From Actinomyces sp. HPA0247 (GTDB taxonomy: Bacteria; Actinomycetota; Actinomycetes; Actinomycetales; Actinomycetaceae): a DNA stretch of 64,000 nt. This document shows positions 1 through 63,762 of this stretch, one piece after another. The notes beneath the pieces are model-generated. The model did not search any database. It was not told the DNA's origin and was given only the letters and a program-made list of their open reading frames with translations. Within the stretch, counting starts at the first letter, position 1, and every line of letters begins with the position of its first letter. The translations under genes were made by a program, and so were the position numbers. Location: the NCBI GenBank assembly GCA_000411415.1, contig KE150450.1, positions 107,055-171,054 on the forward strand, read 5' to 3'.

Positions 1-1837
1 TGCCACCGGGGGCCGCGATCTCCGGCTTGAGCTTGAGATCGGGCGTGACACCCCACGAGGTGAAGTCGGAGACCGACGGGTTGGTCGAGGCGAGCTTCAG
101 GCCCGCGTGCGGATTGGAGATCGTGATGGAGCCGGACTCGCTGGCCTTGATGGCCTCGATGAGCGCGTCCTTCTCCTTCTTCGTGATGGTCACGGTCGGC
201 ATCGTGTGGGTGGTTTCAATGGTCGCCACGTAGGGGTTTTCGACCACCTCGGAGTCGCCGATGATGAGGGCGGCGGGCTTGGAGGTCAGCTGGGTGAGTC
301 CCTTGACCTTGGCCTCGTGGGTCATGTCCGCGCCCGTCGCACTGTCGGAGCCGCCGCGGTCTTCGAGGACGATGACCTTCGACAGGTCGCCGGGGTGCTC
401 GGCGACGAGCTTCTCGAGTGCGGCCGCGTCACCGATGCCCGCGTAGACGAGGGTGTAGGTGGCCTCGGGGATGTCGAGGAGGCTCGGCACGACGGCGTCC
501 TTGAGGCCGCGCGACTTGCGGTAGACGACCTGGCGGTCGCCCACCGTCAGGTAGGGCAGGGCGTCCTGGTTGTTGACCGAGGCGACGGCCAGGGTCGAGG
601 CGTAGGACCCGGGCTCGGAGACCGTGCCGGCGTCGGGGTCGGTAGCAAACGGCTTGTTCTTGCCGCTGTAGTTGGAGTATGCGCTGGAGTAGGAGTTACC
701 CGCGGCGGCGTTGACGGTCACGCCGGCGGCAGCGAGGTTCTTGTAGACCTCCGCGTACATGGTTCCGGCCTCGGTGCCCATACCCGCGTCCTCGCCGAGG
801 GAGAGGTTGATCGAGTCGGGCTTAATGACGACCGCGTCGTCAAGGGCCGCCAGGACAGTGTTGTCGGGGATCGATCCATCCTTGTCGGAGGCGACCTTAG
901 CGACGATGATCTGCGCGTGGGGCGCGGTGCCCTGCAGGTCGGCCGCGTTGGCGGCGGCGATCGCAGCGACGTGGGTGCCGTGCGACAGGTCCTTGCTGGA
1001 CTTGGGCAGCACGTCCGCGTCGTTATCCGCGTAGTCGAAGACGAAGGGGATCTTGTTGTTGAGGTAGGCACCGGTCTTGCCGTGCGGCAGCTTGCCGACA
1101 AGGGCCTCGACGTCCCCCTGGCTCAGGCGCACGTCGACGCCATCCATGGAGCCGGAGAACGCCTGGTGGGTGGCCTCGATGCCCGTGTCGATGACCTCGA
1201 CGACCTGATGATCCCCCTTCTGGGTGGTCTGGTTCGCGCGCGTCATCTCCAGGGAGGAGGCGTTTTGCAGGGCGGGATCCACGGCCTCGGAACCCAGCGC
1301 GCCCGCGTCCCCCTCGACGACCATGGGCTTGTGGTGGCGCTCAATGAACGCGGCCTTGACGCCCTCGGTCGCCTTGATGGCGTCCAGGGACGAGGCCGGG
1401 GCTTGGATCGCGAAACCGTCCAGTGCGTGCGTGTAGTCGCGCACATCGGTGATGTCCGCACCGGGGACCACTGCCTCGACCGAGGTTTCGATGCGGTCCT
1501 TGACCGTCTCGTGCTTGGTTGAGGACGACAGGCCGAAGACCCGCTGGTACCACGGGATTCCGACTGAGCCGTCCTCGAGCTGGACGATGATCGTCGTCGG
1601 GGTGTCGTCGGCGGGGACGGTCTCGGGGGTGGCGGTCGGGTTCGGGGCCCCGGCCTCGTCGGCAGCTCCCGACTGCGGGGTGCCGGACTGGGCGTCGACG
1701 GACGAGGCGGGGGCGGGGGTGCCCGACTGGCTTTCCTCGGGGCTGTTGGCCGCGAAAGCCGCCGGGGTGGTCACGGCGGTCATGGCAAGGGTGCCCGCGG
1801 TTAGCAGCACCAATGCCGAGGTTGTGCGATGGGACAT
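1..1837 (-). CDS. Subtilisin-like (S8) secreted serine protease, 3' part outside window
   Basis: The frame is open from an ATG at 1837 to the left edge, so about 612 N-terminal codons are present and the C-terminus is missing. Residues 1-30 form a signal peptide ending in a Pro/Ala-rich stretch, followed by a low-complexity Ser/Pro/Thr linker and an I9-like propeptide (about 80-160). The catalytic Asp is in VVEVIDTGIE (about residue 207) and the catalytic His in DLSHGTHVAAI (about 276). An Asn-containing AAAGNS motif follows, then a PA-domain-like insertion. The last residues visible, PEIAAPGG, normally lie shortly before the GTSMA serine motif, which is therefore just outside the window. The layout resembles lactocepin/C5a-peptidase-type cell-envelope proteases; that is family knowledge. 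Substrate and wall anchoring cannot be judged here. The gene carries three of the ACGAGGCCGGGG-type 12-mers or lies close to them (1390, 1648; next at 3285). Confidence 0.9.
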   Translation of the reverse strand, partial: MSHRTTSALVLLTAGTLAMTAVTTPAAFAANSPEESQSGTPAPASSVDAQSGTPQSGAADEAGAPNPTATPETVPADDTPTTIIVQLEDGSVGIPWYQRVFGLSSSTKHETVKDRIETSVEAVVPGADITDVRDYTHALDGFAIQAPASSLDAIKATEGVKAAFIERHHKPMVVEGDAGALGSEAVDPALQNASSLEMTRANQTTQKGDHQVVEVIDTGIEATHQAFSGSMDGVDVRLSQGDVEALVGKLPHGKTGAYLNNKIPFVFDYADNDADVLPKSSKDLSHGTHVAAIAAANAADLQGTAPHAQIIVAKVASDKDGSIPDNTVLAALDDAVVIKPDSINLSLGEDAGMGTEAGTMYAEVYKNLAAAGVTVNAAAGNSYSSAYSNYSGKNKPFATDPDAGTVSEPGSYASTLAVASVNNQDALPYLTVGDRQVVYRKSRGLKDAVVPSLLDIPEATYTLVYAGIGDAAALEKLVAEHPGDLSKVIVLEDRGGSDSATGADMTHEAKVKGLTQLTSKPAALIIGDSEVVENPYVATIETTHTMPTVTITKKEKDALIEAIKASESGSITISNPHAGLKLASTNPSVSDFTSWGVTPDLKLKPEIAAPGG

Positions 1838-1903
1838 CTATGGCTCACTTGGTTGACAACTGGGTCAGGGCATGGCCGTGGATACGGCATAACCCAGCGT
1901 CTA

Positions 1904-1921
1904 GGGTAGGGTTCCCTACCC
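1904..1921. promoter_or_regulatory. Perfect palindrome GGGTAGGGTTCCCTACCC upstream of the protease
   Basis: An 8-bp perfect inverted repeat with a 2-bp centre lies about 67 bp upstream of the protease start, in an otherwise AT-rich leader (about 1920-2040). Its position and symmetry suggest an operator for a dimeric regulator; no known consensus is recognised. The rest of 1838-2062 holds no gene that I can support. Confidence 0.4.
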
Positions 1922-2062
1922 TTACTGAAAAGCCCCACCCGGTTTTCTTCTCAGCATCCGTCAAGGGCTTTACGTGGACATTTATCCGCCGTAAACTATT
2001 TCTCTTAGTATCACCTTAGTTACAATAGTCGCCCTTAAATCGCGCTGGTCGCGGCAGGAAAC

Positions 2063-2121
2063 GACAAACCCGCCGAGGAGGGTGCGGACGCGGGGTCCGG
2101 ATCCCCTCCTGGCGGGTTGTC
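2063..2121 (-). terminator. Hairpin terminator after the YbjQ-family gene
   Basis: GACAAACCCGCCGAGGAGGG pairs imperfectly with CCCCTCCTGGCGGGTTGTC across a GC-rich loop. It lies about 30 bp past the stop of the minus-strand gene ending at 2151. The arms flank a GGGGTCCGGATCCCC inner palindrome. Confidence 0.6.
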
Positions 2122-2683: not shown

Positions 2684-3178
2684 ATGAAAATGCACGTCTA
2701 CGGTCCTGGCGGGCGGGACTGCCCCACCGTCCTCATCATTCACCCGATGCTGTCCTCGGCCTCGAGCATGAAGGCTGCGCTCTGCGACCACATGGGTCCC
2801 GGGCTGCGTTTCCTCGTTCCGGACTTGTCCGCTCACGGGGACGAGGCCTCGACCCCCTACGTGTCAGCTGCGGCCGAGGCGGCGGCTCACGCGATGGTCG
2901 CCAGTTTCTCCGCGATGAGTGAGGAGAGCATCCGCGCGATCGTGCGCGACTGCTCGCATGTCAGCCTGCCGCCCCTCTCCCCTGCCATTCAGCGGCACTG
3001 CACCTTCGCGTACGGGCAGAAAGACTCGGACCTGCGGCTCGCGCGGCGCGTGATCCCACGCCTCTACCCGGAGACCGAGCTACGCGTCTGGCCCGGCTGG
3101 GGACACTGCGAGCGCATGAGCCGCGACGCGCGAGCCTACGGGGCAATGCTGCGCGACCTCGTCACGGAGGGGCGTTAG
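2684..3178 (+). CDS. Alpha/beta-hydrolase-fold protein, apparently lacking the nucleophile region
   Basis: A 164-residue protein from an ATG preceded by CGGAG; an upstream in-frame ATG at 2564 has no ribosome site. The N-terminal part looks like a lipase/esterase-type hydrolase: VLIIHPMLSSASSMK is the oxyanion-hole loop, followed by FLVPDLSAHGD. The C-terminal part carries FAYGQKDSDL, with a candidate catalytic Asp, and WPGWGHCER, with the catalytic His. The segment that should hold the GxSxGG nucleophile elbow and the lid is absent. The sequence passes directly from SAAAEAAA to HAMVASF, as though roughly 70-90 codons had been removed in frame; family members are usually about 240-260 residues. 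It may be an inactive remnant. Convergent with the methyltransferase, 4-nt overlap of stops. Confidence 0.6.
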   Translation: MKMHVYGPGGRDCPTVLIIHPMLSSASSMKAALCDHMGPGLRFLVPDLSAHGDEASTPYVSAAAEAAAHAMVASFSAMSEESIRAIVRDCSHVSLPPLSPAIQRHCTFAYGQKDSDLRLARRVIPRLYPETELRVWPGWGHCERMSRDARAYGAMLRDLVTEGR

Positions 3179-3786
3179 CCCTCCTGCTTCCGGTTGGGAA
3201 AGACGGCGATTGCGCAGGGGATGCGTCCTCGCACGAGGCGGAAGCGGGCCTCGTCGTAGCCCATCCCCTCGACGAACGCCTGGTACGAGGCCGGGGTGAA
3301 GTGCTCCTGAAAGCGCACCCCCAGGCGGGACAACAGCCGCGGAATGGGGTTGTTCGCACCATCTGCGAGGCTCACGTAGGTGGGGACGATGATCGTGCCG
3401 CCCGGCTTCACGACTCGAGCAAGTTCTCGTAAGGCTTGCGCAGGGTCAGGCAACAGGTGGATGACATTGCCCGCGACGGCCACATCGAAGGAATCGGCGG
3501 CGTAGGACAGGGCCGTAATGTCGGCTTGCTCGACGGTGACGTTCGAGTGTGTCGTGAGCTTCTTACGGGCTTGCGAGAGCATGCCCTCGGAGTAGTCCGT
3601 GGCGACCAGATGGGCGCAGACCGGGGCAATGGCGGCGCTGATCGCGCCGGTGCCACACGCGCATTCGAGGACACGATCGTCGGGGCGGATCATGCGCGCG
3701 ACCGCCTCGCCCGTGCCGTCATAAGCAGCTCGGTTGAAGGTGTTTTCGAAGAAGTCGTAGAGCGGGGCAACCCGATCCCAGAACAA
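3175..3786 (-). CDS. Class I SAM-dependent methyltransferase
   Basis: A 203-residue protein of UbiE/Methyltransf_11 type. VLECACGTGAISAAI is SAM motif I, LVATDYSEGML the acidic motif II loop, FDVAVAGNVIHLLPDP motif IV and VVKPGGTIIVPTY motif VI. The substrate is unknown. I chose the TTG at 3786 because GGAGG lies 9 nt upstream and because the truncated paralogue at 5159 starts with ATG at the equivalent place (AGCATTGTTCTGGGAT here, AGCATGCTGTGGGAT there). A one-base insertion may have turned the original ATG into TTG. The frame remains open upstream to an ATG at 3921, but that part aligns with non-coding DNA of the paralogue. The 19-bp-period inverted array lies about 140 bp upstream. Confidence 0.8.
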   Translation of the reverse strand: MFWDRVAPLYDFFENTFNRAAYDGTGEAVARMIRPDDRVLECACGTGAISAAIAPVCAHLVATDYSEGMLSQARKKLTTHSNVTVEQADITALSYAADSFDVAVAGNVIHLLPDPAQALRELARVVKPGGTIIVPTYVSLADGANNPIPRLLSRLGVRFQEHFTPASYQAFVEGMGYDEARFRLVRGRIPCAIAVFPNRKQEG

Positions 3787-3922
3787 TGCTAAACACCTCC
3801 GTATTCCCATGCATCGCACGAGGCCGACGCTGCTTCGCGCTGCTGGACATGATACGCCCGCGTGGGAGATGCCGGGGCGGAAAGGGGTTCTGTGCACAGG
3901 AACAGAACCACGAAGGCGCACG

Positions 3923-4021: not shown

Positions 4022-4098
4022 CGTAGGCGATTACGGCGCCCCGATCCCAGATGAGATTATTCTTCCACCCTCGAACAAAGTGACAGGACAACAAAAAC

Positions 4099-10402: not shown

Positions 10403-10411
10403 TGGTGATTG

Positions 10412-13090: not shown

Positions 13091-15777
13091 TGCTGCTCTC
13101 CCTTCGCCGCCTCCGATGCTTCGCCCGCGCCGTCCTCATCGACGAGGCCGGGGCCGGCCTCGTCCGCGTCCTCTCCCCCGCGCTCACCCAGGGTTGAGGC
13201 AAGCGCCGACGAGATCGACGCCCCCACGGCGGCCGCGCCAAGCGCGAGACGCGATCGCGCGCCCTGCACGCGGCGGGTGAGCAGGGAACGCACGTCCTGC
13301 TCGTCCATGGCACCGAGGAGCTGCTGACGCGCCAAAGCCTCGCGCAGGTACTCCAGTCCAATCAGGAAAGTGATGACGAGGAGGACCCAGACGATCCAGG
13401 CGCCCAGAATGATCGGCACCTCCGCCACATTCGCGACGGACAGCACCGCCAGAGCCACCGGCACGATAACCCCGAGAATGATCGCGATGCGGCGAATCGT
13501 CGGGTAACGACGTTCGAAGCGCGCGGCACGGCCGCTCACCGAGCGCTGGAAGCCGTCGTGATCGGCCAGGGCCGCCACGATCTGCGTCAGGCGATAGCGG
13601 TTGGAGGGAACGCGCGTGGCCTCGGCCAGGAAGAGCCCGGAGGACGCCAGGTCGCGGGTGATCATCGCGTTCAGATTCACCAGGAACGGGCGCAGCGCGA
13701 GGCCGATCGCGAAGGCAACCAGCGCCTCGGCACCGAGAACCGCCAGGCACGACAGGTAGGTGTGCCCATAGAACCCGGCCACGATCTCACGCAGCGCGTT
13801 AATGCCGTAGGTGAAGGGGAACAGCGGGTGCAGGAAGCGGAAGAAGGACGGGAGCATCTCGATCGGATACAGGCCGGCAGACCCGGGAATCTGCATGACC
13901 ATGATGATGACGCACAGGCCCTTGCCGATGTGCTGGAAGCAGGTCGAGAGCATGTAGACGATCGACACAAACACCAGCGAGATGATCATCGCCGTCCCCA
14001 CGAACGCGGGACGCGACACCGTCTGCACGCCGATAATCAGGTCGCCGATCGACACAACGAGCCCCTGAATGACCCCGAAGAAGGCGAGAAGCATCCACCG
14101 GCCCATGTACTTGGCGGCAGAGGACGTGGGGCCGATGCCCTCCTCATCCACATCGAGCTTCAGGAGGAGGACGAGCGAGAACGCGCCGATCCACAGCGCC
14201 AGGTTCGTGAACAGCGGGGCCATCGCCGAACCGTAGGCGGCCACGGGGTACACGGCCTTCGTCTCGATCTGCGTCGGCGAGGCCATGAAGGAGGCGATCG
14301 ACTCGGCGTTGACTCCCAGGGAATCCGCGAGGTCACGCAGCGTGTTCGAGGAGGACAGCGAGGAGATGTCCGTGGCCACCGAGTTCAGGTCGGTCGTGAT
14401 CGCAGCGACGTTCGTGGCGCTCGTCTGGGTCGCCGTCTTTGCCCCGTCCAGGAGGGAGTCGAGCTGGTCAAGCAGGCCCGACACCTGGTCGCGCTGGCTG
14501 CGCAGTGTATCGAGGGAGCCTCGCATCGAGGAGGACGCGCTCGAAAAATCATCGAGCGCCGAGGAAATGGCGGGCAGCTGGGCGGAGACGCCACTGCGCG
14601 CGTTCGTGACAGCGGTCGACACGGCCACTGACGCGTCGGACGCCGACGTGAGCGCGGTCGTGATCGACGAGGAAGTTGACGAGAGATCCGAGTTGAGGGT
14701 CGTCAGGCTACTCAGGGCCGTGGACAGCGCAGCGTTCTGGTTCGTCAGGTCGTTCAGTGCCGTGCCTGCAGCGGGCAGGTTCCCGATCCCCAGGGCGTTC
14801 AGATCCGCGAGCACCTCGCCCACCGAGTCGTTAATCGACGCACCCTCAGTGAGCAGCCCACCGACGCGCCCGGTGGCGCCCTGCACGGCACCGTCAAGGG
14901 TGCCTGCGTCGGCCGAGACACCCGCCAGGGCGCTCGCCGCATTCGAGGACAGGCCATCAAGAGCCCCGCCCATCTGGCTCGAGAATGAGGCCAGCGACGT
15001 GCGCGAGTCGCTCACAAGCTGGTCCGCTTGGTCCAGCGACGCCGACAGATCCGAAGCCGCGCTATCCAGCTCACCCAGGGTGCCGCGCGCCGAGGCCACC
15101 GAGGCCTTCGCCGCGTCAATCTTCTCCCCCATGCCGTCCAGGGTCTGCGAGGCACTGCCGAGCTTGGCCGAGGCCTCGGACACCGACGCGGACACGTCCG
15201 AACGCTTCTGGTCAGCGTTGTTCGCGATGCTCACCCCGGCCTCGGACGCCTTCTCCGACAAAACCTTGGCCACCGTCGAGACGAACGCGGAATTGATCTG
15301 GCGATCCAGCGCCGTCGCACCCGCCCCCGTGATCTTCGGGGCGACCGCGTTGTTCTTCTCGTTGACGTAATACTGGATATTTGGCTTGACGTAGGTTCCG
15401 TCAACGATGCCCGTCAGGTCGCGCGAGAAAGACGCCGGGATGATGAAGGCCGCGTAGGAATCGCCGCGCTCGACCTCCGCGCGGGCCTCGTCCGCGCTCA
15501 CGAAGTGCCAGCCCAGCTGATCGTTCTGCTTCAGCTGAGTTTCCAGCATCGCACCCACGTTCACGGTGCCGATCCGGTCCTTGGTCGCGCCCTCGTCCTC
15601 GTTCGCCACCGCCACGCGGATGTGGGAGGTCTGCGAGTACGGATTCCAGAACCCGACGATGTTGAACCACGCGTAGAGCGCGGGCACGAACGCCATACCG
15701 ATGATGACAATCCATGCGGCCGGTACACGTACCAGCCTCAGCAGATCACGACGAAAAATCCTGACGGGACCCCGCAC
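13087..15777 (-). CDS. YhgE/Pip family membrane protein (first of pair)
   Basis: 896 residues with the same plan as its downstream partner. The N-terminal helix is AAWIVIIGMAFVPALYAWFN, then GFWNPYSQTSHIRVAVANED and YYVNEKNNAVAPKITGAGA. A long Ser/Ala/Asp helical region (about 195-500) is followed by the C-terminal membrane block from MAPLFTNLALWIGAFSLVLL to FAIGLALRPFLVNLN. It is about 160 residues longer. After the last family helix comes a cytoplasmic-looking stretch, then two extra hydrophobic helices (RRIAIILGVIVPVALAVL and VPIILGAWIVWVLLVITFLI) and an acidic tail. One ACGAGGCCGGGG 12-mer lies in the tail and a near-match at 15234. It starts 18 nt past the SmpB stop, so it could be co-transcribed with smpB. 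Confidence 0.85.
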   Translation of the reverse strand: MRGPVRIFRRDLLRLVRVPAAWIVIIGMAFVPALYAWFNIVGFWNPYSQTSHIRVAVANEDEGATKDRIGTVNVGAMLETQLKQNDQLGWHFVSADEARAEVERGDSYAAFIIPASFSRDLTGIVDGTYVKPNIQYYVNEKNNAVAPKITGAGATALDRQINSAFVSTVAKVLSEKASEAGVSIANNADQKRSDVSASVSEASAKLGSASQTLDGMGEKIDAAKASVASARGTLGELDSAASDLSASLDQADQLVSDSRTSLASFSSQMGGALDGLSSNAASALAGVSADAGTLDGAVQGATGRVGGLLTEGASINDSVGEVLADLNALGIGNLPAAGTALNDLTNQNAALSTALSSLTTLNSDLSSTSSSITTALTSASDASVAVSTAVTNARSGVSAQLPAISSALDDFSSASSSMRGSLDTLRSQRDQVSGLLDQLDSLLDGAKTATQTSATNVAAITTDLNSVATDISSLSSSNTLRDLADSLGVNAESIASFMASPTQIETKAVYPVAAYGSAMAPLFTNLALWIGAFSLVLLLKLDVDEEGIGPTSSAAKYMGRWMLLAFFGVIQGLVVSIGDLIIGVQTVSRPAFVGTAMIISLVFVSIVYMLSTCFQHIGKGLCVIIMVMQIPGSAGLYPIEMLPSFFRFLHPLFPFTYGINALREIVAGFYGHTYLSCLAVLGAEALVAFAIGLALRPFLVNLNAMITRDLASSGLFLAEATRVPSNRYRLTQIVAALADHDGFQRSVSGRAARFERRYPTIRRIAIILGVIVPVALAVLSVANVAEVPIILGAWIVWVLLVITFLIGLEYLREALARQQLLGAMDEQDVRSLLTRRVQGARSRLALGAAAVGASISSALASTLGERGGEDADEAGPGLVDEDGAGEASEAAKGEQQ

Positions 15778-19429: not shown

Positions 19430-19467
19430 GGCCCCGGCCTCGTGCATAGATTGACGAGGCCGGGGCC
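19430..19467 (-). terminator. prfB terminator made of an inverted pair of ACGAGGCCGGGG
   Basis: GGCCCCGGCCTCGT, a 10-nt loop and ACGAGGCCGGGGCC form a perfect 14-bp stem 22 bp past the prfB stop. It is one of four terminators in the window built from the same repeated 12-mer. Confidence 0.85.
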
Positions 19468-22180: not shown

Positions 22181-22621
22181 TTAGCGCTGCCCGTGAGCCT
22201 CTCGAAGACGCGCACTCGAGGTCCGCATCAGCTCGGGAACCGCCGTCGTACGCAGGACAGGAGGCACCAACGACACGGTCGGCCGTGCACTCACTGTGAC
22301 CTCCACCTCGGTATCACTGACATTCACCGCGCTCACAGTCACGCCATCACCCACCTTGCACGTGGTGTCCGACAGCGCCGCAAGGCCCTCCTCGACCCGA
22401 GAACGCACCCCCGCCTCGTCGACTTCGAGCGCGTCCCCTTCCACGAAGAACGAGCCGCTTGAGGCGTTGCCACCTCCAACGCTCGCCAGGGCGTCAGCGC
22501 ACGACACAAGCCTGCGATCCTGCATCGCGACCTCGGTCAGCGCGAGGGAGACGAAGAGAAACAGACAGACGAACGCACAACCTGCCCCCATCACCACGCC
22601 GACGCGCCCCTCATCACCCAT
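22181..22621 (-). CDS. TadE-like secreted protein (Rv3654c-type), end of Tad operon
   Basis: 146 residues. A single N-terminal hydrophobic helix (GAGCAFVCLFLFVSLALTEV) is followed by a soluble domain rich in Val/Thr (VSCADALASVGGG, VTVSAVNVSDTEVEVTVSAR). It fits the helicase/secretion-neighbourhood TadE-like family that closes this operon in Actinobacteria (Rv3654c position). The start ATG at 22621 overlaps the preceding gene by 8 nt; the frame is open further upstream but reads as the shadow of that gene. Predicted minor pilin-like or exported component. Confidence 0.7.
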   Translation of the reverse strand: MGDEGRVGVVMGAGCAFVCLFLFVSLALTEVAMQDRRLVSCADALASVGGGNASSGSFFVEGDALEVDEAGVRSRVEEGLAALSDTTCKVGDGVTVSAVNVSDTEVEVTVSARPTVSLVPPVLRTTAVPELMRTSSARLREAHGQR

Positions 22622-23012
22622 GGGCCACCACCTCCCGGACGGGCACGCGCGCACTCGAGGACACACCCACACCTGCGCTTCCCAGCCACGCGGGCACGAA
22701 GGGCAGGGGGACGCGCACGGACACCCGCACGTCGACGACGCCCCCATCGCCCTCGCACCCAACGCAATTTGGGGACACGTCCGCCTGAGCATCGATCCCA
22801 AAGTCCTCCACGATGAGCGCAACGGCATGGGACGCGTCGGCTTCGCGAGCGGGGTCCTCAGCGAGAATCCGCGCGGCCTCACGCGCCCCCGCGTCCACCG
22901 CCATCGCACCGGCACTCACCTGCCCAACCGCGAGAACAATGTAGAGGACTGGAATGACGAGGACGACCAGGATGCCCAGGAATTCCACGCTGGCGTCCCC
23001 GCGCTCGTTCAC
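22614..23012 (-). CDS. TadE-family pilus-assembly protein (second)
   Basis: 132 residues from a GTG start with GTGGAGGGG just upstream. The N-terminus NERGDASVEFLGILVVLVIP is the TadE-type pseudopilin signature (Glu followed by a hydrophobic helix). AMAVDAGAREAARIL follows, and the C-terminal domain has CVGCEG. It overlaps the previous gene by 4 nt and the next by 8 nt, showing tight translational coupling. TadE-family proteins are minor pilins processed by a prepilin peptidase; no such peptidase is encoded in this window. Confidence 0.8.
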   Translation of the reverse strand: MNERGDASVEFLGILVVLVIPVLYIVLAVGQVSAGAMAVDAGAREAARILAEDPAREADASHAVALIVEDFGIDAQADVSPNCVGCEGDGGVVDVRVSVRVPLPFVPAWLGSAGVGVSSSARVPVREVVAHG

Positions 23013-23410
23013 GGCCCCTCCACGAGAGCACGACCGTGCACGGTGAGCCACCGCGGCCCAAAGCCTCCAACGAGGGGCAGGCGCGTACGAACAGTGACAA
23101 CGAGCACGTCGACTCCGCCGTCATCCTCGCGCCCGACGTCGATCTCACGATCCTTCGGAGCACCCACGAGAGAATCGAGGAGTTCTCCCGTCCGAGCCCT
23201 CGCCTCGTCTTCATCGCCGCCGAGGAGACCGCCGCGGCGCGCACCCTCGGACGCAGCGCTCACACTCATCGTGCGCACGTGCGAGGCGAAGGCAATCTGG
23301 GCGAGCAGGAGAATCACGAGGACGACGAGGCCCTGGACGAGGACTGTCGACACGACCTCGGAGCCTCGCTCGGGATGCGCGTCAGATTCCTGAAATCGAA
23401 TCCATCGCAC
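23009..23410 (-). CDS. TadE-family pilus-assembly protein (first)
   Basis: 133 residues by the longest frame, starting GTG at 23410 inside the end of the preceding small gene. The TadE-type segment is ERGSEVVSTVLVQGLVVLVI followed by LLLAQIAFASHVRTMSVSAA and GARRGG. The C-terminal domain is mostly beta (VDVLVVTVRTRLPLVGGFGP). The start lacks a clear ribosome site, so translation may be coupled to the gene before it, or initiation may lie a few codons further in. Equivalent in position to Rv3655c. Confidence 0.75.
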   Translation of the reverse strand: MRWIRFQESDAHPERGSEVVSTVLVQGLVVLVILLLAQIAFASHVRTMSVSAASEGARRGGLLGGDEDEARARTGELLDSLVGAPKDREIDVGREDDGGVDVLVVTVRTRLPLVGGFGPRWLTVHGRALVEGP

Positions 23411-23552
23411 GATTAAATATCTCCACGAGGCGCTCCGAGGCGACTCCCCAAATAAGGACGACGAGGGCGGCCGTCATCAGCGTGATAAGCACCCATCCGG
23501 GCACGTCACCGCGCTCCCCGAGGGGAGTTTTCCTCAGGAATAGTTTCTTCAT
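23382..23552 (-). CDS. DUF4244 / Flp-pilin-like small protein
   Basis: 56 residues from an ATG with AAGGAAGG upstream. A basic N-terminus (MKKLFLRKTPLGERGDVPGW) is followed by one hydrophobic helix (VLITLMTAALVVLIWGVASE) and a short amphipathic tail (RLVEIFNRAMDSISGI). Size and position after tadC match the Rv3656c-type DUF4244 protein, probably the major Flp-like pilin of the system. It overlaps the next gene by 29 nt. Confidence 0.8.
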   Translation of the reverse strand: MKKLFLRKTPLGERGDVPGWVLITLMTAALVVLIWGVASERLVEIFNRAMDSISGI

Positions 23553-23568
23553 GACTGTTTTCCTTCCT

Positions 23569-24465
23569 TCACGGTGTGAAATCCAGGGCGATGAGTCCCG
23601 GGTAGAGGGCGAACATGACGGTGACGGGCAAGATGAGAAAGACGACGGGCAACAGCATGGCGATCTCACGCCTGCCTCCCTCCTCCATCAGGGCGGCGAG
23701 GGATCGTTCTCGCTGATCGCGCGCCTGGTCATGCAGGACCGAGGCCAGGGGCGAGCCACGCTCAATCGCGGTCGTGAGTGTTCGACTCAGGCGCGTGAGA
23801 GCAGGCGATTCGGTGCGCTCAACGAGGTCAGAGAGCGCACGCACGGAGGGCGTACCGTTGCGGATATGACCAGCGGTGAGGGACAGTTCCACCCCCAGTG
23901 GCCCACCCGCACACCCCGCAACCCGCTCGATGGCAGCAGGAATCGACTCCCCCGCCGCAACCGCGAGCGCCAGCAGCTCCGCACAGTCGGGAACGGCGAC
24001 GTCGATCGCGCGCTGCCTGGCGTGGGCCCGCAGCGTGAGGAAACGGTCCATCCCCGCGACTCCCAGCAGTGTGCCGACAAGAGCGCACGCGCACAGGGGC
24101 ACGAGCGAGGCGCGCAGCGAGGAGGCTGGGCGCGCCGTGAGGGTGAGGCAGGCGAGGATGAAACCGGCGATACCCGCCAGTGCCTGGTGTAGCCGGAAGA
24201 CGGAGACCTCCGGTGTCATTCCCGCCAGGGCGAGACGGCGCGAGACGGAATCCGTGGTCGACCCCAGGGATTCGAGGGCGGCCGCACTGACGCGCCGAGC
24301 CCATGCGCTCACGGGGGACGGGGCCTCCTCGCTGACGCGCCCCTGCGCCACTCGGGCCGCGAAGGAGGGACGGCGTGCGAACCATGCCGCCACGAGGAGG
24401 GCAATGCCTCCCACGAATAGCGCACTGACTGCCACGTCGAGGATGCGCGCGGTCCAGGGGCTCAC
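23569..24465 (-). CDS. tadC: TadC-like type II secretion F-domain protein
   Basis: 298 residues from a GTG that overlaps the tadB stop (GTGA), with GGGGGGTGG upstream. Hydrophobic segments: ILDVAVSALFVGGIALLVAA, ALAGIAGFILACLTLTA, SLVPLCACALVGTLLGVAGM and a C-terminal IAMLLPVVFLILPVTVMFAL. The cytoplasmic T2SF domain has DCAELLALAVAAGESIPAAI and DLVERTESPALTRLSRTLTT. It forms the inner-membrane platform with TadB on which the TadA ATPase works. Confidence 0.85.
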   Translation of the reverse strand: MSPWTARILDVAVSALFVGGIALLVAAWFARRPSFAARVAQGRVSEEAPSPVSAWARRVSAAALESLGSTTDSVSRRLALAGMTPEVSVFRLHQALAGIAGFILACLTLTARPASSLRASLVPLCACALVGTLLGVAGMDRFLTLRAHARQRAIDVAVPDCAELLALAVAAGESIPAAIERVAGCAGGPLGVELSLTAGHIRNGTPSVRALSDLVERTESPALTRLSRTLTTAIERGSPLASVLHDQARDQRERSLAALMEEGGRREIAMLLPVVFLILPVTVMFALYPGLIALDFTP

Positions 24466-25328
24466 GATCCACCCCCCAGGTTGCGCGGATCGGAGCTCAG
24501 CCGACTCATTGCCTTCATCGCCAGATAGGCGATGACGCAGATCCCGGCACCGGAGCACAGGACGGCGATGCCTCCCGGGGAGTTCCAGACGCTCGCGCTG
24601 GCGCCTCCTCCCGACAGGAGCAGGAGGACGACCCACGGCGCGGCGATTCCGAGACGGGCCGCCCCAACCGTCCAGGACTGGCGGGCCTCGAGCTCACCGC
24701 GCACGCGCGCATCCTCGCGCAGGAGCGTGGCCAGGTCCTGCAGGAGGCGCGTCAGGTCGGCACCGCCGACGGAACGCGCAATCCGCAGCGCCTCGATAAT
24801 GCGATCGGCGACGGGGTCTGCGACTTCTTCTTTCATCCGATCGAGCGCGGGAGCAAAACGCCCGTGAGCACTGTAGTCCCGGGAGAAGGCCTCGAAGGCA
24901 AAGCGGATGGGGACGGGGCCCTCCTGCGCGAGGTCGCACAGCACTTGGGGCAACGAGGTGCCCGCGCGCACGCCGGACACCATCGCATCGATGACCTCTG
25001 GCCATGCGGCACGAACGGTCTTGGCGTGGGCACGCACCCGGGAGACGACCCAGGCGTAGGGGAGGAACGACACGCCGAGCGACACAATGAGGGCGACCGG
25101 CCATGCGCTGGTAACAACGAGGACGAGCACCGCGACGACCGCCCCGATCGCACCGCTGAGCAAGACGAGGCGCCCCGCCGTCAGCCCCGGAACGCGTGCG
25201 CGCGCAACGTCCTCACGCACGCGCTTCCACGGCCCCCACGGCCTCCACACGGGCGCGGGGAGGAACCACGGGGACAGGGCCACAACGATCCCGATCCCGA
25301 ATACGAGCCCACACACAATGGCGATCAC
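24462..25328 (-). CDS. tadB: TadB-like type II secretion F-domain protein
   Basis: About 288 residues. The T2SF domain is visible as VIDAMVSGVRAGTSLPQVLC and FEAFSRDYSAHGRFAPALD plus IIEALRIARSVGGADLTRLL. Helices lie at the N-terminus (VIAIVCGLVFGIGIVVALSP), in the middle (LVLLSGAIGAVVAVLVLVVT) and at the C-terminus (LGIAAPWVVLLLLSGGG, GGIAVLCSGAGICVIAYLAM). I favour the GTG at 25328, which overlaps the tadA stop as GTGA, exactly as the next junction does. A GTG four codons earlier (25340) is possible. Confidence 0.85.
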   Translation of the reverse strand: MIAIVCGLVFGIGIVVALSPWFLPAPVWRPWGPWKRVREDVARARVPGLTAGRLVLLSGAIGAVVAVLVLVVTSAWPVALIVSLGVSFLPYAWVVSRVRAHAKTVRAAWPEVIDAMVSGVRAGTSLPQVLCDLAQEGPVPIRFAFEAFSRDYSAHGRFAPALDRMKEEVADPVADRIIEALRIARSVGGADLTRLLQDLATLLREDARVRGELEARQSWTVGAARLGIAAPWVVLLLLSGGGASASVWNSPGGIAVLCSGAGICVIAYLAMKAMSRLSSDPRNLGGGS

Positions 25329-26539
25329 AGCGTCCCCCACTCGAGCAGGGACGCCAGGTCGAACCCGGCCGCAGCAAAACGATCATGCAGGTCCAGTCCG
25401 CCGCTGCCGCGTTCACAGCGGATCCCGTCGTACGTAAAGAGCGACGCAGTTTCGATCCGATCACCTTCAACGCGCCCGGGAACCGCGAGAATCTCGGCGA
25501 CGTGGCGGTGCCCATCGGCTCCTCGTTCAACGTGACACACGAGGTCGATCGACGAGGCCAGGGTCGGTGTGACGAACGCCGTCGTGACGTTTTCTCCCGC
25601 GAGGAGAGGCAGAATCGAGAGTTTATCGAGGGCCTCGCGCGCCGAATTGGCATGCACGGTCGCCATGCCCGGCACGCCTGCGTTGAGAGCGACCAGCAGA
25701 TCGAGGGCCTCAGGGCCTCGCACCTCGCCGACGATCAGGCATTCGGGGCGCATACGCAGGGACTCGCGCACGAGATCACGCAGGGTAATCTCACCCGTCC
25801 CCTCCGCGCCCGCCGGACGAGTCTGCATCGCAACGTGGTCCCAGTTGGCCAGCCCCAGCTCGAAGACTTCCTCGCAGGAGATAACGCGGCGCGAACGCGG
25901 AAGCTCCCCCGCCAGGGCGCGCAGCAGCGTCGTCTTGCCCGCCTGAGTTCCTCCCGAAACGAGCACGGACAGCCCGCAACTGACGGCGGCCGAGAGGAAG
26001 TCGCGCATCGGGGCAGCGACCATCTCGACCGCAACCAGATCCTCCAGGGTGCGTGCCCGCTGGATATGTTTGCGGATGTTCACGCTCCACGACGCACCCG
26101 TCACCGGCGGAATGACGACATGGAGGCGCTCGCCGCCCGCGAGCATCGCGTCCACGAAGGGACTCGACAGGTCGAGCCTGCGTCCCGAATGGTGGAGCAT
26201 CCTCTCCACGAGGGCCCGCACATCCTCGTCCGTGAGGATGAGGCTGGTCAACTCGGCCACACCGCCGCGCGCGACAAACACACGCGAGGCGGCGTTAATC
26301 CATATTTCCTCCACCGACGGATCGTCCATGAGCGCCTGGAGCGGCCCGAGGCCGCAGATGTCGTCCATGAGGTCTGCCTCGATCTGCGCGCGCGCAGCGG
26401 GCAACAGGTCGGGTGCATGCCGATCGATGGCACGCTCGATGAGCGCGCGCACCGCCGCAGGATCGCGAGCCGCGTCAATGCCGCCCGCAGCCAATCCCTC
26501 TCGGACACGTGCCGCGAGAGAACGCGTCATGGCTTCCAT
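25325..26539 (-). CDS. tadA: TadA/CpaF-family secretion ATPase
   Basis: 404 residues. Walker A is VSGGTQAGKTTLLRALAGEL. The Asp box, Walker B (MRPECLIVGEVRGPEALDLL) and His box (ATVHANSAREAL) follow in order, and the N-terminal domain has DDICGLGPLQALMDDPSVEE and IWINAASRVFV. It powers pilus or pseudopilus assembly as a hexamer at the inner face of the membrane. GGAGG lies 7 nt before the ATG. It is the first gene of the operon. The regulator ssd/tadZ that usually precedes it in Actinobacteria is missing: the next gene upstream is the divergent APH-like gene, 144 bp away. Confidence 0.92.
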   Translation of the reverse strand: MEAMTRSLAARVREGLAAGGIDAARDPAAVRALIERAIDRHAPDLLPAARAQIEADLMDDICGLGPLQALMDDPSVEEIWINAASRVFVARGGVAELTSLILTDEDVRALVERMLHHSGRRLDLSSPFVDAMLAGGERLHVVIPPVTGASWSVNIRKHIQRARTLEDLVAVEMVAAPMRDFLSAAVSCGLSVLVSGGTQAGKTTLLRALAGELPRSRRVISCEEVFELGLANWDHVAMQTRPAGAEGTGEITLRDLVRESLRMRPECLIVGEVRGPEALDLLVALNAGVPGMATVHANSAREALDKLSILPLLAGENVTTAFVTPTLASSIDLVCHVERGADGHRHVAEILAVPGRVEGDRIETASLFTYDGIRCERGSGGLDLHDRFAAAGFDLASLLEWGTL

Positions 26540-32175: not shown

Positions 32176-32225
32176 ACGAGGCCGGGGCCAGCCGCACTCA
32201 CACGCGCGGCTGGCCCCGGCCTCGT
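32176..32225 (-). terminator. Amidase-gene terminator made of an inverted ACGAGGCCGGGG pair
   Basis: ACGAGGCCGGGGCCAGCCGC and GCGGCTGGCCCCGGCCTCGT form a perfect 20-bp stem with a 10-nt loop, 14 bp past the amidase stop. Confidence 0.85.
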
Positions 32226-42968: not shown

Positions 42969-43633
42969 GGCTGGTCCTCACGGGTCTGGGCGGGTGTCGC
43001 GGGTGCGCTCGGGGACGAGGCGTGGGCCTCCTTGGGCGACAGGGCACCGCCACGCTCGACGTAGCGGCGTCCCGTGGCCGGGCACACCCACGTGCGGTCC
43101 CCGGCCTCGTTCGTCGGTTCCTCATCGGCGGCCACGAGAGGCACGCCGGCTTCGCCGACCCACCCGATGCGGCGTGCGGGCACGCCGACGACGAGGGCGT
43201 AGGGGGTCACGTCCGACGTGACGACCGCGCCCGCGCCGACCGACGCCCACGCGCCGATGCGCACGGGGGCGACGCACACGGCGCGAGCACCGATGGCAGC
43301 GCCTCGATCGACAGTGACACCGACGCGTTGCCAGTCACTCGCGCTCTTGAGGCTCCCGTCGGGGTTGATCGCGCGGGGGCAATGGTCGTTCGTGAAGACG
43401 GCCGCGGGCCCGACGAATACACCGTCGGCCAGGGAGGCGGGCTCATAGATGAGGGCGTAGTTCTGGATCTTGCAGCGATTCCCGACGCACACGCCTTCGC
43501 CGACGTATGCACCCCGACCGACGATCGTCTCCTCGCCGATAGTTGCATCTTCTCGAACCTGGGCGAGATGCCACACGCGGGCGCTGGGGGCCACCATCGC
43601 ACTGGGCGCCACGTCGGCGCTGGGCTCGATCAC
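42965..43633 (-). CDS. Left-handed beta-helix N-acetyltransferase (WbpD-like)
   Basis: 222 residues from a GTG preceded by GGAGAGGGA; an ATG at 43660 is possible. Hexapeptide repeats are obvious (VAPSAMVAPSARVWHLAQVR, IGEETIVGRGAYVGEGVCVG, GVTVDRGAAIGARAVCVAPV), with the catalytic region VFTNDHCPRAINPDG. After residue about 160 comes a C-terminal extension with WVCPATGRRYVERGGALSP, found in several WbpD/WlbB relatives, and then a Ser/Pro tail. It likely acetylates the C3 amine made by the adjacent aminotransferase, giving a 2,3-diacetamido sugar. First gene of the acetyltransferase-aminotransferase-oxidoreductase operon. Confidence 0.87.
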   Translation of the reverse strand: MIEPSADVAPSAMVAPSARVWHLAQVREDATIGEETIVGRGAYVGEGVCVGNRCKIQNYALIYEPASLADGVFVGPAAVFTNDHCPRAINPDGSLKSASDWQRVGVTVDRGAAIGARAVCVAPVRIGAWASVGAGAVVTSDVTPYALVVGVPARRIGWVGEAGVPLVAADEEPTNEAGDRTWVCPATGRRYVERGGALSPKEAHASSPSAPATPAQTREDQP

Positions 43634-47607: not shown

Positions 47608-47655
47608 AAAGCCCCCGGCCTCGTTCCTCTGTGAGGGAACGAGGCCGGGGGCTTT
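47608..47655. terminator. Bidirectional terminator made of an inverted ACGAGGCCGGGG pair
   Basis: AAAGCCCCCGGCCTCGTTCC and GGGAACGAGGCCGGGGGCTTT form a stem of about 20 bp with a 7-nt loop and T-runs at both ends, between the convergent LCP and galE genes. Confidence 0.9.
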
Positions 47656-47673: not shown

Positions 47674-48669
<996 letters not shown>

Positions 48670-49308: not shown

Positions 49309-49320
49309 ACGAGGCCGGGG
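49309..49320 (+). repeat. Unpaired intergenic copy of ACGAGGCCGGGG
   Basis: The only intergenic copy of the 12-mer that is not half of a terminator hairpin. It lies between purK and purE (ACGAGGCCGGGG followed by TACC). Confidence 0.8.
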
Positions 49321-50507: not shown

Positions 50508-50539
50508 CTTGTGTTCCACTCCTTCAATCTACCGCGCCG

Positions 50540-53922: not shown

Positions 53923-54633
53923 ATGCGCCTTGTTCTTGCCTCAGCATCCCCCGCCCGCCGAGCGACCCTCATTGCGGCGGGCATCACACCAATCGTTCAT
54001 GTATCAACGGTTGATGAGGACGCAGTCCTCGCCGCGCTGCCCGGAGGGCGAGCGTTTTCAGGCGGCGCAACCACCCCTGCCGACGAAGTCGCAGCGCTTG
54101 CGGCGGCCAAGTGCGCGGACGTCTGCGAGGCCTTGAGCGCCCCCAGCCAGGCTTCCGAGCTTCCCGAGGGCAAGCCCGTCCTCGTCGTCGGCTGCGACTC
54201 GATGCTCGAGATCGGCGGCCAGATGCTCGGCAAGCCCCACACTCCCGACGTCGCACGCGAGCGCATCCGCGCCATGCGCCGCACGACCGCAACCCTGTGG
54301 ACAGGCCACTGCGCGGCCCTCCTCGCCCCGGCCTCGTCGACGCATAAGGACACGACCCCGGGACGCACCGTGAGCGCCAGCGTCACTCGCTCCGCCTCGA
54401 CCCAGGTCCACTTCGGGGACATCTCGGATGCTGAGATTGACGCGTACGTCGCCACTGGCGAACCCCTACACGTTGCCGGTTCTTTCACCGTCGATGGACT
54501 GGGAGGCCCCTTCATCGAGGGCGTGACGGGCGATTACCACTCCGTCGTCGGTATCTCCCTGCCCCTGCTGCGGTCCATGGCCACCGAACTCGGGGTGTTC
54601 TGGCCGGACCTGTGGGATGCGCCGCGCCCCTGA
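53923..54633 (+). CDS. maf: Maf-family nucleoside triphosphate pyrophosphatase
   Basis: 236 residues. [19 protein letters not shown] is the Maf N-terminus, [20 protein letters not shown] carries the catalytic Asp region, [19 protein letters not shown] follows, and the C-terminal [39 protein letters not shown] is diagnostic. It hydrolyses non-canonical or specific NTPs. The ATG at 53923 matches the family start; the frame is open to 53836. One 12-mer (54326) encodes APAS in a variable loop, which is longer than usual here. Confidence 0.92.
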
Positions 54634-55645: not shown

Positions 55646-55695
55646 ACGAGGCCGGGGCCGCCCGCGCGCAGTGCGCAAGGTGGCCCCGGCCTCGT
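55646..55695. terminator. Bidirectional terminator made of an inverted ACGAGGCCGGGG pair
   Basis: ACGAGGCCGGGGCC and GGCCCCGGCCTCGT form a perfect 14-bp outer stem around an inner loop, between the convergent dapD and dapC genes. Confidence 0.88.
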
Positions 55696-59776: not shown

Positions 59777-60631
59777 ATGACTGACATCGCGACGCTCAGC
59801 GCTGACGTTTCGACGGCCTCGGCCCTTGTCACCCCCTTCGGCGCGCATCTGTTGTCATGGCGTCCCACCGGGCATTCCGACGTCCTGTGGCTCTCCTCCC
59901 GCGCGGTGCTCGATGGCACGAAGGCAATCCGCGGCGGCATCCCCCTGTGTCTCCCCTGGTTCGGTAGCCCCACCGATTCGCCGACGAGGCCGGGGGACGG
60001 TGCAGGTGCGCACGGGTTTGCCCGCACATCGCTGTGGACGCTGCGCTCAAGCACGCAACCCGCGGACGACGCCCCGGCCTCGTTCACCTTCGAGCTGCAC
60101 CACACGGGCGAGACGTCCCCCCTCTACCCCCACTCGTTCTGCGCGCGTCTTGACATATCCGCGGGGGACGAACTGAACGTCACCCTGACCCTCACGAACG
60201 AGGACGACCACCCCTTCGCGATCGAAGCGGCCCTGCACACCTACCTGCACGTCGGCGACGTCAAGGACGTGACGGTGGAGGGATTGAACGGCGAACGCTA
60301 CTACGACAAGGTCCGCGAACGCTACGCCACCCAGAGCGGCGACATCACTTTTATCGGGCCGACCGACCGCGTCTACACCTCCACGGCGCAGGTCCAGGTC
60401 GTCGACCCGAAGCTGGGACGGCGTATCGTCGTGGACAAGAACGGCTCGGGCTCGACGATCGTGTGGAACCCCTGGTCGCAGGGCGCGGCCACGATGAGCG
60501 ACATCGGTGAGGGCGAGTGGCAGAACTTCGTATGCGTGGAAACAGCGGCAGTGCGCGAACGGGCACTCACGCTGTGGCCGGGGCATCCCCACATCATGAC
60601 GCAGACGCTCGCCGTGGAGTCACTGGACTGA
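59777..60631 (+). CDS. Glucose-6-phosphate 1-epimerase-like (aldose 1-epimerase family) protein
   Basis: 284 residues. FGAHLLSWRPTGHSDVLWLS, AIRGGIPLCLPWFG, GAHGFARTSLWTL (His of the active site), AALHTYLHVGDVKDVTVEGL (second His) and IVVDKNGSGSTIVWNPWSQG with the catalytic Glu region FVCVETAAV. This is the D-hexose-6-phosphate mutarotase (YeaD) plan. It has no ribosome site and TACTAT lies directly on the ATG, so weak or leaderless initiation is possible. Two copies of the 12-mer lie within (59984, 60072). Opposite to typA; upstream in-frame sequence is antisense to typA. Confidence 0.88.
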   Translation: MTDIATLSADVSTASALVTPFGAHLLSWRPTGHSDVLWLSSRAVLDGTKAIRGGIPLCLPWFGSPTDSPTRPGDGAGAHGFARTSLWTLRSSTQPADDAPASFTFELHHTGETSPLYPHSFCARLDISAGDELNVTLTLTNEDDHPFAIEAALHTYLHVGDVKDVTVEGLNGERYYDKVRERYATQSGDITFIGPTDRVYTSTAQVQVVDPKLGRRIVVDKNGSGSTIVWNPWSQGAATMSDIGEGEWQNFVCVETAAVRERALTLWPGHPHIMTQTLAVESLD

Positions 60632-62207: not shown

Positions 62208-62223
62208 GCGTCCATTGACCACA

Positions 62224-62257
62224 GTGGCCCCGACCTCGGCGATGAAGTCGGGGCCAC
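62224..62257. terminator. Bidirectional hairpin terminator
   Basis: GTGGCCCCGACCTC and GAAGTCGGGGCCAC around a 6-nt loop, between the exported hypothetical gene and the convergent GS-family gene. Confidence 0.75.
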
Positions 62258-62268
62258 ATACTGATGCC

Positions 62269-63762
62269 TCAGCCGATGTGGAAGTAACGCTCCACGAGTT
62301 CCTCGACAGAGACACGCGAGTCCGCCAGGTCATCACGCAGGTGTTCATCTCCCAGCTCGATCAGGCGCGATGCCCACGAGTCGATGAGACCCGCGGGGAA
62401 GACGTCCTTCGCCTCGTAGTCTTCACGCTGGGCGAGGAGCCTGCCCGCGGCCTCGAAGCAGGAGGCTGGCAGCTGGTCGAGGCCGGGGGTCTGCGATGCG
62501 TCGCCGTCGACCTTACGCTCACGCGCGTACTCTTCCATGCCCGGCTCGGTCAGGCCAATACGCGCGGCGACGGCAATGCCAGCAAGGAGCAGGTGGACCG
62601 CTGCGGACCCGTCGGGGCTGCGCAGCTCCACCGTCTGAGAGTCATTGGGCAGGTCGGCAATCGGAGGCTCAAGGGGGTTGGCATCGCGGAACATCGAGTC
62701 GTCGATGTTCTGCCAGCCAAGAGGCACGCGCACCAGAACGGAGCGGTTGCGGTCACCCCAGCAGATCGAGGTCGGCGCCTCCTGATGGGGAACAAGACGC
62801 AAGAACGATGTGGGGACGGTGTTACCAAACGCTGTGAGCGATGCTGCGTGCGACAGGTAGCCTCCGATCACCTTGAGCGCGGTGTCGGTGAGACCAGATC
62901 CCGTGGAGAACTGGTTGACGCCATCCTTGACGATGCGGGTATGGAAGTGCATGCCCGATCCGGCTTGCCCCACGGCGATCTTCGGCGAGAAGGAGACATG
63001 AATGCCATAGGAATGAGCGACTTCGCGCAGCACCCACTTGGCGAGCACCATCTGATCGGCGGCATCGAGCGCATCAACGGGCAGGAATTCGATCTCTTGC
63101 TGGACCATCTGACGCCCGTCGGCGACGAAGTTACCGACCTCGGAATGGGCGTACTTCACCGAGCAACCGATGGCAACGAGGTGCGCGAGGGTCTCCGTGC
63201 GCACTTCCTCCCACTTGGAGAAGGGCCCGGATTCGTGGTAGCCGCGCTGAGGCTCGACGGGGAACAGCTCCTCTTCCTCCGAGAAGAGGTAGTACTCGAG
63301 TTCACCGAGGGCCTGCAGCTCGCAGCCCGTCTCCTCCTTGAGTGCTCGTTGAGCCTTCCGCAGGATTTCCTGGGGCGCCGAGGCCAGGGGGCGACCGTCA
63401 ACATCGTAGAAGCCGCACAGGATATCGAGGGTCGGGATGTGCGAGAAGGGGTTGAGGAACGCGGTAGCCACGCGCGGCACGACATACAGGTCCGAAGAGG
63501 TCGCCTCGACGAATGTGAACAGGGAGGAACCATCGACGCGCTCTCCGAGAGTCAACACCCGATCGAGGTGAGCCTTGGATTGGATCGCGAAGTTCAGGGT
63601 CTTCAGGCGTCCGTCCCCTCCGACGTAGCGGAGGTTGAGCATTTGGATGCCATTGTCCTCGATATAGCCGATGATGTCGGCTTTCGTAAACTCCTTCGCG
63701 GGCTTTCCGAGGGCCTGCACGAGCGGGTTGGGGTTCAGAGACACTGTGTCAGTCGACAGCAT
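62269..63762 (-). CDS. Glutamine-synthetase-family protein, divergent
   Basis: 497 residues from an ATG with GAGGAG 6 nt upstream. The beta-grasp domain has MLNLRYVGGDGRLKTLNFAI. The catalytic domain has LGELEYYLFSEEEELFPVEP, AHSEVGNFVADGRQMVQQEI, QAGSGMHFHTRIVKDGVNQF and SVLVRVPLGWQ. The final Glu region is VELRSPDGSAAVHLLLAGIA. The metal and ammonium-site residues seem present, but the EVxxGQxE loop carries an insertion and no adenylylation motif (NLYDLP) is seen. It could be a true glutamine synthetase of a minor class or a gamma-glutamyl ligase. A -10-like TACAAT lies at 63808-63813 on the minus strand. The 3' end meets a hairpin. Confidence 0.82.
   Translation of the reverse strand: MLSTDTVSLNPNPLVQALGKPAKEFTKADIIGYIEDNGIQMLNLRYVGGDGRLKTLNFAIQSKAHLDRVLTLGERVDGSSLFTFVEATSSDLYVVPRVATAFLNPFSHIPTLDILCGFYDVDGRPLASAPQEILRKAQRALKEETGCELQALGELEYYLFSEEEELFPVEPQRGYHESGPFSKWEEVRTETLAHLVAIGCSVKYAHSEVGNFVADGRQMVQQEIEFLPVDALDAADQMVLAKWVLREVAHSYGIHVSFSPKIAVGQAGSGMHFHTRIVKDGVNQFSTGSGLTDTALKVIGGYLSHAASLTAFGNTVPTSFLRLVPHQEAPTSICWGDRNRSVLVRVPLGWQNIDDSMFRDANPLEPPIADLPNDSQTVELRSPDGSAAVHLLLAGIAVAARIGLTEPGMEEYARERKVDGDASQTPGLDQLPASCFEAAGRLLAQREDYEAKDVFPAGLIDSWASRLIELGDEHLRDDLADSRVSVEELVERYFHIG

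Follow-up and report, generated by a model that had tools for sequence, protein, structure and literature searches.

A 12-nucleotide word repeated on both strands of a Schaalia-like genome as a probable DNA-uptake sequence with lineage dialects

The 64,000-base stretch of Actinomyces sp. HPA0247 analyzed here (the window; positions 107055-171054 of contig C1 in a genome, G000, of 2,430,444 bases in three contigs) carries, among others, the genes purE and purK, dapD and dapC, galE, a tad-type Flp-pilus locus and a tmRNA. Scattered among them are copies of the 12-mer ACGAGGCCGGGG, the word with which this report is concerned and which we regard as a probable DNA-uptake sequence (DUS). Exact copies number 18, ten on the forward strand and eight on the reverse, and 14 further copies differ from the word by one mismatch. 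The first-pass annotation, made from the window alone, had listed 18 exact copies, all of which are present, with the correction that the copy placed at 35485 starts at 35484; the four first-base variants it had named (15234-, 35946-, 41617- and 62477+) are all among the 14. The genome itself appears to belong to the odontolytica group of Schaalia; in a scan of named genomes, the TadA protein encoded in the window was 89-92% identical to those of Schaalia sp. ORNL0103, S. odontolytica FDAARGOS_732, Actinomyces bouchesdurhonensis and two apparently misnamed records filed under Xylanimonas and Sanguibacter.

The positions of the copies and of their neighbouring genes are collected in Table 1. 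The four inverted pairs described by the first-pass annotation are confirmed and fold as stem-loops with z values of -6.8 to -9.2; the terminator role it assigned to them is putative, because T-runs (three and four T) lie beside the stem of the 47.6-kb pair and at none of the other three. Phage records included none resembling the 47.6-kb hairpin. An unpaired copy does lie between purK and purE, as had been noted, and the remaining exact copies fall within called genes, where 59984 and 60072 make up a fifth facing pair.

Table 1. Copies of the 12-mer and other features of the window (window coordinates).
Feature	Position	Strand	Context	Remark
Exact copy	1390..1401	+	within subtilase-family gene (2-1810 -)	
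Exact copy	1648..1659	-	within subtilase-family gene (2-1810 -)	
Exact copy	3285..3296	+	within methyltransferase gene (3175-3921 -)	
Exact copy	13142..13153	+	within ABC-2 membrane protein gene (13087-15696 -)	
Inverted pair 19432-/19454+	19432..19465		between ABC-transporter ATPase gene (18609-19298 -; presumably FtsE, by position) and peptide-release-factor gene (19490-20611 -)	stem-loop z -9.2
Inverted pair 32176+/32214-	32176..32225		directly after amidase/choline-binding-repeat gene (32239-34299 -)	stem-loop z -9.2
Exact copy	35484..35495	+	within glycosyltransferase gene (34502-35701 -)	
Exact copy	43099..43110	-	within hexapeptide-transferase gene (42965-43633 -)	
Inverted pair 47613-/47639+	47613..47650		between LytR_cpsA_psr gene (46313-47578 +) and galE (47674-48669 -)	stem-loop z -7.4, short T-runs
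Single copy	49309..49320	+	between purE (48733-49287 -) and purK (49353-50519 -)	
Exact copy	54326..54337	-	within Maf-like gene (54133-54633 +)	
Inverted pair 55646+/55684-	55646..55695		between convergent dapD (54678-55634 +) and dapC (55712-56857 -)	stem-loop z -6.8
Two facing copies 59984+/60072-	59984..60083		within aldose 1-epimerase gene (59777-60631 +)	76 bp apart
tad-1-like Flp-pilus locus	22614..26539	-		candidate part of uptake machine, with a putative link to the motif
TadA	25325-26539	-	tad-1 locus	
TadB-like	24462-25283	-	tad-1 locus	
TadC-like	23569-24465	-	tad-1 locus	
Weakly TadE-like	23009-23353	-	tad-1 locus	below curated cut-off
Small protein	22614-23012	-	tad-1 locus	no family match; called TadF1 by position
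tmRNA gene	10409-10786	-		sole Rfam match in window at gathering scores

Copies with at most one mismatch number 32 in the window, against 1.18 (sd 1.04) over 100 dinucleotide shuffles, and an order-3 Markov model predicts 0.059 exact copies on both strands together, in agreement with the first-pass estimate of far fewer than one. The whole genome holds 426 exact copies, one per 5.7 kb, of which 216 are forward and 210 reverse, so that the balance reported for the window extends to the genome; the same pattern read backwards, used as a control, occurs 0 times forward and once in reverse. In a further 400 kb sampled, 85 copies were found where the order-3 Markov model expects 0.34. The excess over Markov expectation is more than two orders of magnitude, which removes the first of two outcomes that had been named as fatal to an uptake reading, a genomic count near that expectation.

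Genes were called with a simple hexamer-scoring script. The 409 genes considered (410 kb) contain 45 copies of the word; shuffling synonymous codons within each gene, repeated 100 times, gave 2.4 on average and never more than 7. Intergenic occurrences of ACGAGGCCGG number 67 against 0.4 expected. A sample of 464 kb holds 103 copies, 61 of them intergenic, 41 coding and one partial, although intergenic sequence makes up 21% of it; because the gene caller may miss genes, the true intergenic fraction of copies could be lower. Copies per kb amount to 1.0 in convergent gaps, 0.83 in tandem gaps and 0.26 in divergent gaps. An exact inverted partner lies near 28 of 108 copies (482 kb); 25 of these are intergenic, all but one of them (24/25) at most 60 bp from a stop codon. 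Another 24 have an inverted partner with one to three mismatches, and 56 have none within three mismatches; random 12-mers have such a partner in 251 of 2000 cases. The base before the word is G or A in 92 of 103 copies and the base after it is C in 73, with no strong preference in the flanks beyond one base on each side. A mobile element as carrier of the word is rejected, since the shared flank ends about one base either side of the 12-mer. Relative to transcription, 16 coding copies lie in the same orientation and 29 in the opposite one, and intergenic singles near 3' ends divide 13 to 9; neither orientation fits an RNA signal. Across 24 stretches, 17 have the word on both strands, two hold several copies on a single strand (3/0 and 0/2) and five hold one copy at most.

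Some individual stretches deserve mention in their own right. A 20-kb stretch with no copy (L169) carries polysaccharide-synthesis genes, including a flippase family above cut-off and a Wzy-type ligase just under it, and in the adjoining L170 a single copy accompanies a transposase-like gene. Stretches L072 and L079 start at contig starts with 5.4-5.6 kb free of called genes, perhaps rRNA. Viral contigs also contain the 14-mer GACGAGGCCGGGGC: at least 120 such stretches were found, and each of the 80 that were listed has it once.

The word has the consensus rACGAGGCCGGGGc, and its positions differ widely in their tolerance. One-substitution variants of ACGAGGCCGGGGC in 522 kb amount to five copies for positions 2-6 (CGAGG) together, against 78 exact copies, and to four at position 7, one at position 11 and four at position 12; positions 9, 10 and 13 account for 20, 39 (30 of them T) and 31, a sum of 90. 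In 100 kb of G015, which uses a G-type word, the fifteen core variants total one copy and exact copies 16. The shorter 8-mers extend this picture: CGAGGCCG reaches 7.6 times expectation in G017 and 6.9 times in G024 and G026 together, CGAGGACG 7.1 times in G005 and 16.2 times in G060, a member of another genus of the family, and CGAGGGCG 3.3 times in G014. Core variants stay at 0-1.8 times expectation in G017 (with one exception, 4 vs 0.9), at most 1.5 times in G024 and G026 and at most 1.3 times in G005, and in these same genomes it is the base following CGAGG that tolerates change (1.6-4.2 times); in G060 that base may be G (11.8 times) or T (5.5 times), and C was not seen. CGAGG is the most rigid part of the word across the genus, and the next base switches by lineage between C, A and G. 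Decay of a dead motif in species without the tad-1 locus is disfavoured by the rarity of core variants in G017 and in G024 and G026, against an exact 8-mer at 7-8 times expectation. The motif of G060 is a related motif outside the genus. In 60 kb of that genome (L248-L250), CGAGGACG occurs 58 times against 3.6 and CGAGGGCG 62 times against 5.2, and in 40 kb of G039 CGAGGGCG occurs 26 times against 1.8.

Dialects were counted in 118 genomes, 35 of them from the genus, the window's own included. The C-type 12-mer exceeds 100 copies in 12 of the 35 (426 in the own genome, 167 in G015) and occurs 0-45 times in the other 23 and 0-24 times in the 83 genomes outside. The G-type 12-mer ACGAGGGCGGGG is present 1001 times in G015 (500/501 by strand, control 1) and 7 times in the own genome. 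Totals of the 9-mer ACGAGG-C/A/G-CG, given in the order C/A/G, are 1062/228/240 in the own genome, 285/1039/257 in G005, 292/294/1586 in G015, 325/498/1717 in G014, 304/495/1427 in G018, 426/552/1034 in G016, 320/521/1056 in G007, 75/147/443 in G003, 379/43/29 in G017 and 22/50/21 in G032; in high-GC genomes a codon background remains in such totals despite the reversed control, and the codon-preserving test covers samples. Mapping the dialect labels onto a ComEC tree of 30 genomes takes 7 changes, against a mean of 14.8 for shuffled labels, none of 200 shuffles being as low; the tree was built by a quick method with no bootstrap and a label threshold of 1.6-fold instead of 1.8, and near-copies in it favour clustering of the labels. 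Dialect follows the ComEC tree as built in this way. A comparison of the same slot between species, defined by the release-factor and ABC-ATPase genes, found both genes in 6 of 18 loci from five species, the other 12 lacking one or both: G020 has a C-type pair there, S. cardiffensis (two loci) a pair with the G-type core, and G003, G030 and S. vaccimaxillae no pair.

Two records filed as Xylanimonas cellulosilytica and Sanguibacter keddieii (L172 and L173) carry Schaalia-like DNA with five copies of the 12-mer each in 21 kb. Their TadA proteins are 91-92% identical to that of the window, and the assemblies are probably misnamed.

Conservation at orthologous sites was assessed by aligning window sites to eight species, with expectations taken from 12-mers matched for GC content and flank identity; six of the 18 sites (1390, 1648, 3285, 13142, 59984 and 60072) are left out of these counts, and the alignment of a ninth species, G005, spans 2.8 kb. 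Intergenic sites were exact in 27 of 50 site-species combinations against 4.4 expected, and coding sites in 6 of 21 against 2.1; the single copy at 49309 was exact in five of the seven species aligned there. Such conservation at orthologous sites had been proposed as a check on the first-pass reading, and it speaks in its favour.

The genes that an uptake pathway would need were likewise found. ComEC was detected in 33 of the 35 genus genomes, the two misses being genomes 70% and 88% complete, and in the own genome it adjoins ComEA (stretch L074), so that both proteins recommended for a search are in place. It was also present in 10 of 12 further genomes, motif-bearing and motif-free, the two misses again being incomplete; competence genes occur in relatives without the 12-mer as well. 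Two T2SSE ATPases exceed the family cut-off in the own genome, each in a tad-type locus. One locus, tad-1, lies in the window, and the second (L131), 0.55 Mb away, encodes TadA, one TadB/C-type protein, a DUF4244 protein and a weakly TadE-like protein below the curated cut-off. A 132-aa protein is the most divergent of the tad-1 set, with 34-50% identity between the own genome and species outside the odontolytica group, against 61-73% for TadA-1 in the same comparison; as a candidate receptor it is only a lead.

Taken together, the features match the pattern described for DUS (PMC3630211): the word is in excess, symmetric between strands, arranged in facing pairs at gene ends and built on a rigid core, its dialects follow descent, its sites are conserved, and com and tad genes are present. 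We consider it probable, from these sequence comparisons, that ACGAGGCCGGGG serves as a DNA-uptake sequence of this Schaalia species, and the first-pass proposal of a DUS-like or uptake signal sequence (USS)-like element is thus supported, not proven. With somewhat less assurance, we also favour the wider view that Schaalia and some neighbouring Actinomycetaceae possess a separately evolved uptake-sequence system, the first in Gram-positives, which would be read by a competence machine of the Flp/Tad-pilus type and whose CGAGG-N-CG dialects would act as barriers to gene exchange. Under this scheme, for which we infer competence, selective uptake by a receptor and spread by transformation, competent cells equipped with ComEA, ComEC and a Flp/Tad-type pilus would take up word-bearing free DNA in preference, and transformation would swap word-less alleles for word-bearing ones, so that the word would build up on both strands. 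Within genes it would accumulate at places that the encoded protein can accommodate; the strongest accumulation would be directly downstream of stop codons, where a facing pair could also fold into a hairpin. Species differences after the CGAGG core would bias exchange toward the own lineage.

The best-known uptake sequences are those of two Gram-negative families, for which independent origins are assumed (PMC12616744). In Neisseriaceae, the DUS show dialects and a conserved core, every dialect genome has inverted pairs, and one-off copies are numerous (PMC3630211); the Schaalia word is like them in being short, non-palindromic and present in many copies on both strands, with a rigid inner core, lineage dialects, inverted pairs (tied to terminators in DUS) and many one-off copies. 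It differs in its core, CGAGG against CTG in DUS (PMC3630211), and in its actinobacterial host; the pilus loci in Schaalia are of the Tad/Flp type, whereas the reader of DUS is ComP, a minor pilin of type IV pili (PMC12616744). By sequence, the word belongs to neither the Neisseriaceae DUS nor the Pasteurellaceae USS proper. The Pasteurellaceae USS is similarly a self-tag, of an origin separate from DUS and with a receptor that is itself only predicted (PMC12616744), and differs from the Schaalia word in sequence and pilus type. One orientation is commoner within genes in the DUS and USS groups (PMC2346458), which the 29 to 16 skew of coding copies perhaps parallels. A further comparison is with Micrococcus luteus, whose transformation needs ComEA, ComEC and two tad loci (PMC4322843); the two genomes are alike in having two distant tad loci together with comEA and comEC, one locus having separate tadB and tadC, and the terms 'uptake sequence' and 'sequence specific' are absent from that paper's text (PMC4322843). 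In open-access titles and abstract starts, among the matches listed, there was no report of an uptake sequence in Actinobacteria.

The alternative that survives best, though we judge it unlikely, is that the CGAGGNCG word is a binding site of a chromosomal protein, for segregation, nucleoid organization or Chi-type recombination, selected within the cell and unrelated to uptake. A density of about one copy per 5.7 kb lies within the range of Chi, and any binding protein could be expected to leave such a combination of rigid core and tolerant edges. A housekeeping site, however, is not expected to form facing pairs after stop codons, nor to change by one base at hundreds of copies between sister species. 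Polar signals such as FtsK-orienting polar sequences (KOPS), architecture-imparting sequences (AIMS) or Chi are further disfavoured, as already argued for the window, by the even genome-wide strand counts and by the lack of strand bias along the sampled contigs, which carry no placement relative to origin or terminus: 59 forward and 50 reverse copies in 522 kb, with 47/34 on the first contig and 11/16 on the second. Less likely again is a word of the type of the highly iterated cyanobacterial octamer HIP1, kept by a bias of mutation, repair or methylation with no recognition during uptake. Such a word would account for lineage-specific variants and for copies being overabundant on both strands, inside genes and between them; the Schaalia word, on the other hand, is non-palindromic, clusters at the 3' ends of genes and in facing pairs, and retains its long right half GGGGC in two dialects. 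We give still less weight to a spread family of transcription terminators or another RNA signal, which the strong stem-loops of the four window pairs and the placement after stop codons would favour. Intrinsic terminators would show a hairpin and a T-run at nearly every copy, whereas 56 of 108 copies are without a partner, a T-run accompanies just one of the four window pairs, 45 of 109 copies lie in genes in both orientations, and the intergenic singles near 3' ends face both ways; one terminator family as the sole cause is rejected by the unpaired copies. Chance, composition or codon usage has next to no probability: parts of the word do match common codons (GAC GAG GCC; GGC CTC GTC), and 9-mer totals in high-GC relatives include such a background, but for the 12-mer in the own genome the Markov and synonymous-shuffle results and the single copy of the reversed control refute it. 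The second outcome named as fatal by the first-pass annotation, that codon usage and one spreading terminator family explain all copies, is excluded by the same coding excess and unpaired copies.

A number of observations weigh against the uptake-sequence reading, or against parts of it. Nine genus genomes (G001, G004, G006, G008, G009, G013, G021, G022 and G027) have no dominant base after the core, and G032 is without a motif excess. Variation extends to the first core base in G060, at 4.8 and 4.0 times expectation, and G014 has several core variants at 2-2.8 times. A helicase tree (14 rows of 20 loci) gave no significant clustering of dialects, 42 of 200 shuffles being as low. Terminator function may lie partly behind the intergenic conservation, and the excess in coding conservation (6 vs 2.1) is modest. 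As for the machinery, no receptor was singled out among the tad-1 proteins compared. The tad-1 ATPase is absent from six near-complete genus genomes (G017, G018, G019, G024, G026 and G032), all of which except G032 keep the motif excess; conversely, of the 37 genomes from the rest of the family, all with at most 15 copies of the 12-mer, 27 have a tad-1-like TadA (best E <=2e-93). The motif cannot be predicted from whether a genome has tad-1, and these counts do not support tad-1 as the sole reader of the word. The density in Schaalia is below that of the approximately 1900 10-mers of N. meningitidis and N. gonorrhoeae (PMC3630211), and no paper on Schaalia competence was found in the open-access literature, among the matches listed.

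If the uptake-sequence reading is true, it would add a further origin, in Actinobacteria and with a different pilus type, and would imply that self-tagging of DNA evolves repeatedly. It would also offer a second dialect system in which to study how uptake words change, and would suggest a genetic tool, the tagging of donor DNA, for a group that includes hosts of Saccharibacteria (PMC10633639).

Other repeats were encountered in the same sequences. Arrays of (T)AACCTATCCGCATGnnnn with a 19-bp period lie at window positions 3962-4030, 5294-5380 and 31816-31900, and also at 4598, as two diverging sets around GGATAGGTTA(A/T)TAAGCTATCC; AACCTATCC occurs in 50 copies in 522 kb, none inside a called gene among the matches listed, and the 19-bp-period repeat is also found in samples of G025, G011, G010 and G012. 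These arrays look like clustered protein-binding sites. Elements of approximately 113 bp (window 32027-32132 and 38204-38310) have outward inverted ends, AATTTCGCATGCAATTC and GAATTGCATGCGAAATT, and mostly an inner dyad of the type AACGTTG...CAACG; those in the window had no Rfam match at gathering score, and nine are present in 522 kb, all intergenic, with ends 95-97 bp apart. Finally, G031 (L090-L092) contains an intergenic repeat built on AGCACCGTGGGG and GGTGCTCCCCAC, each of these 12-mers occurring in 12 copies within 60 kb.

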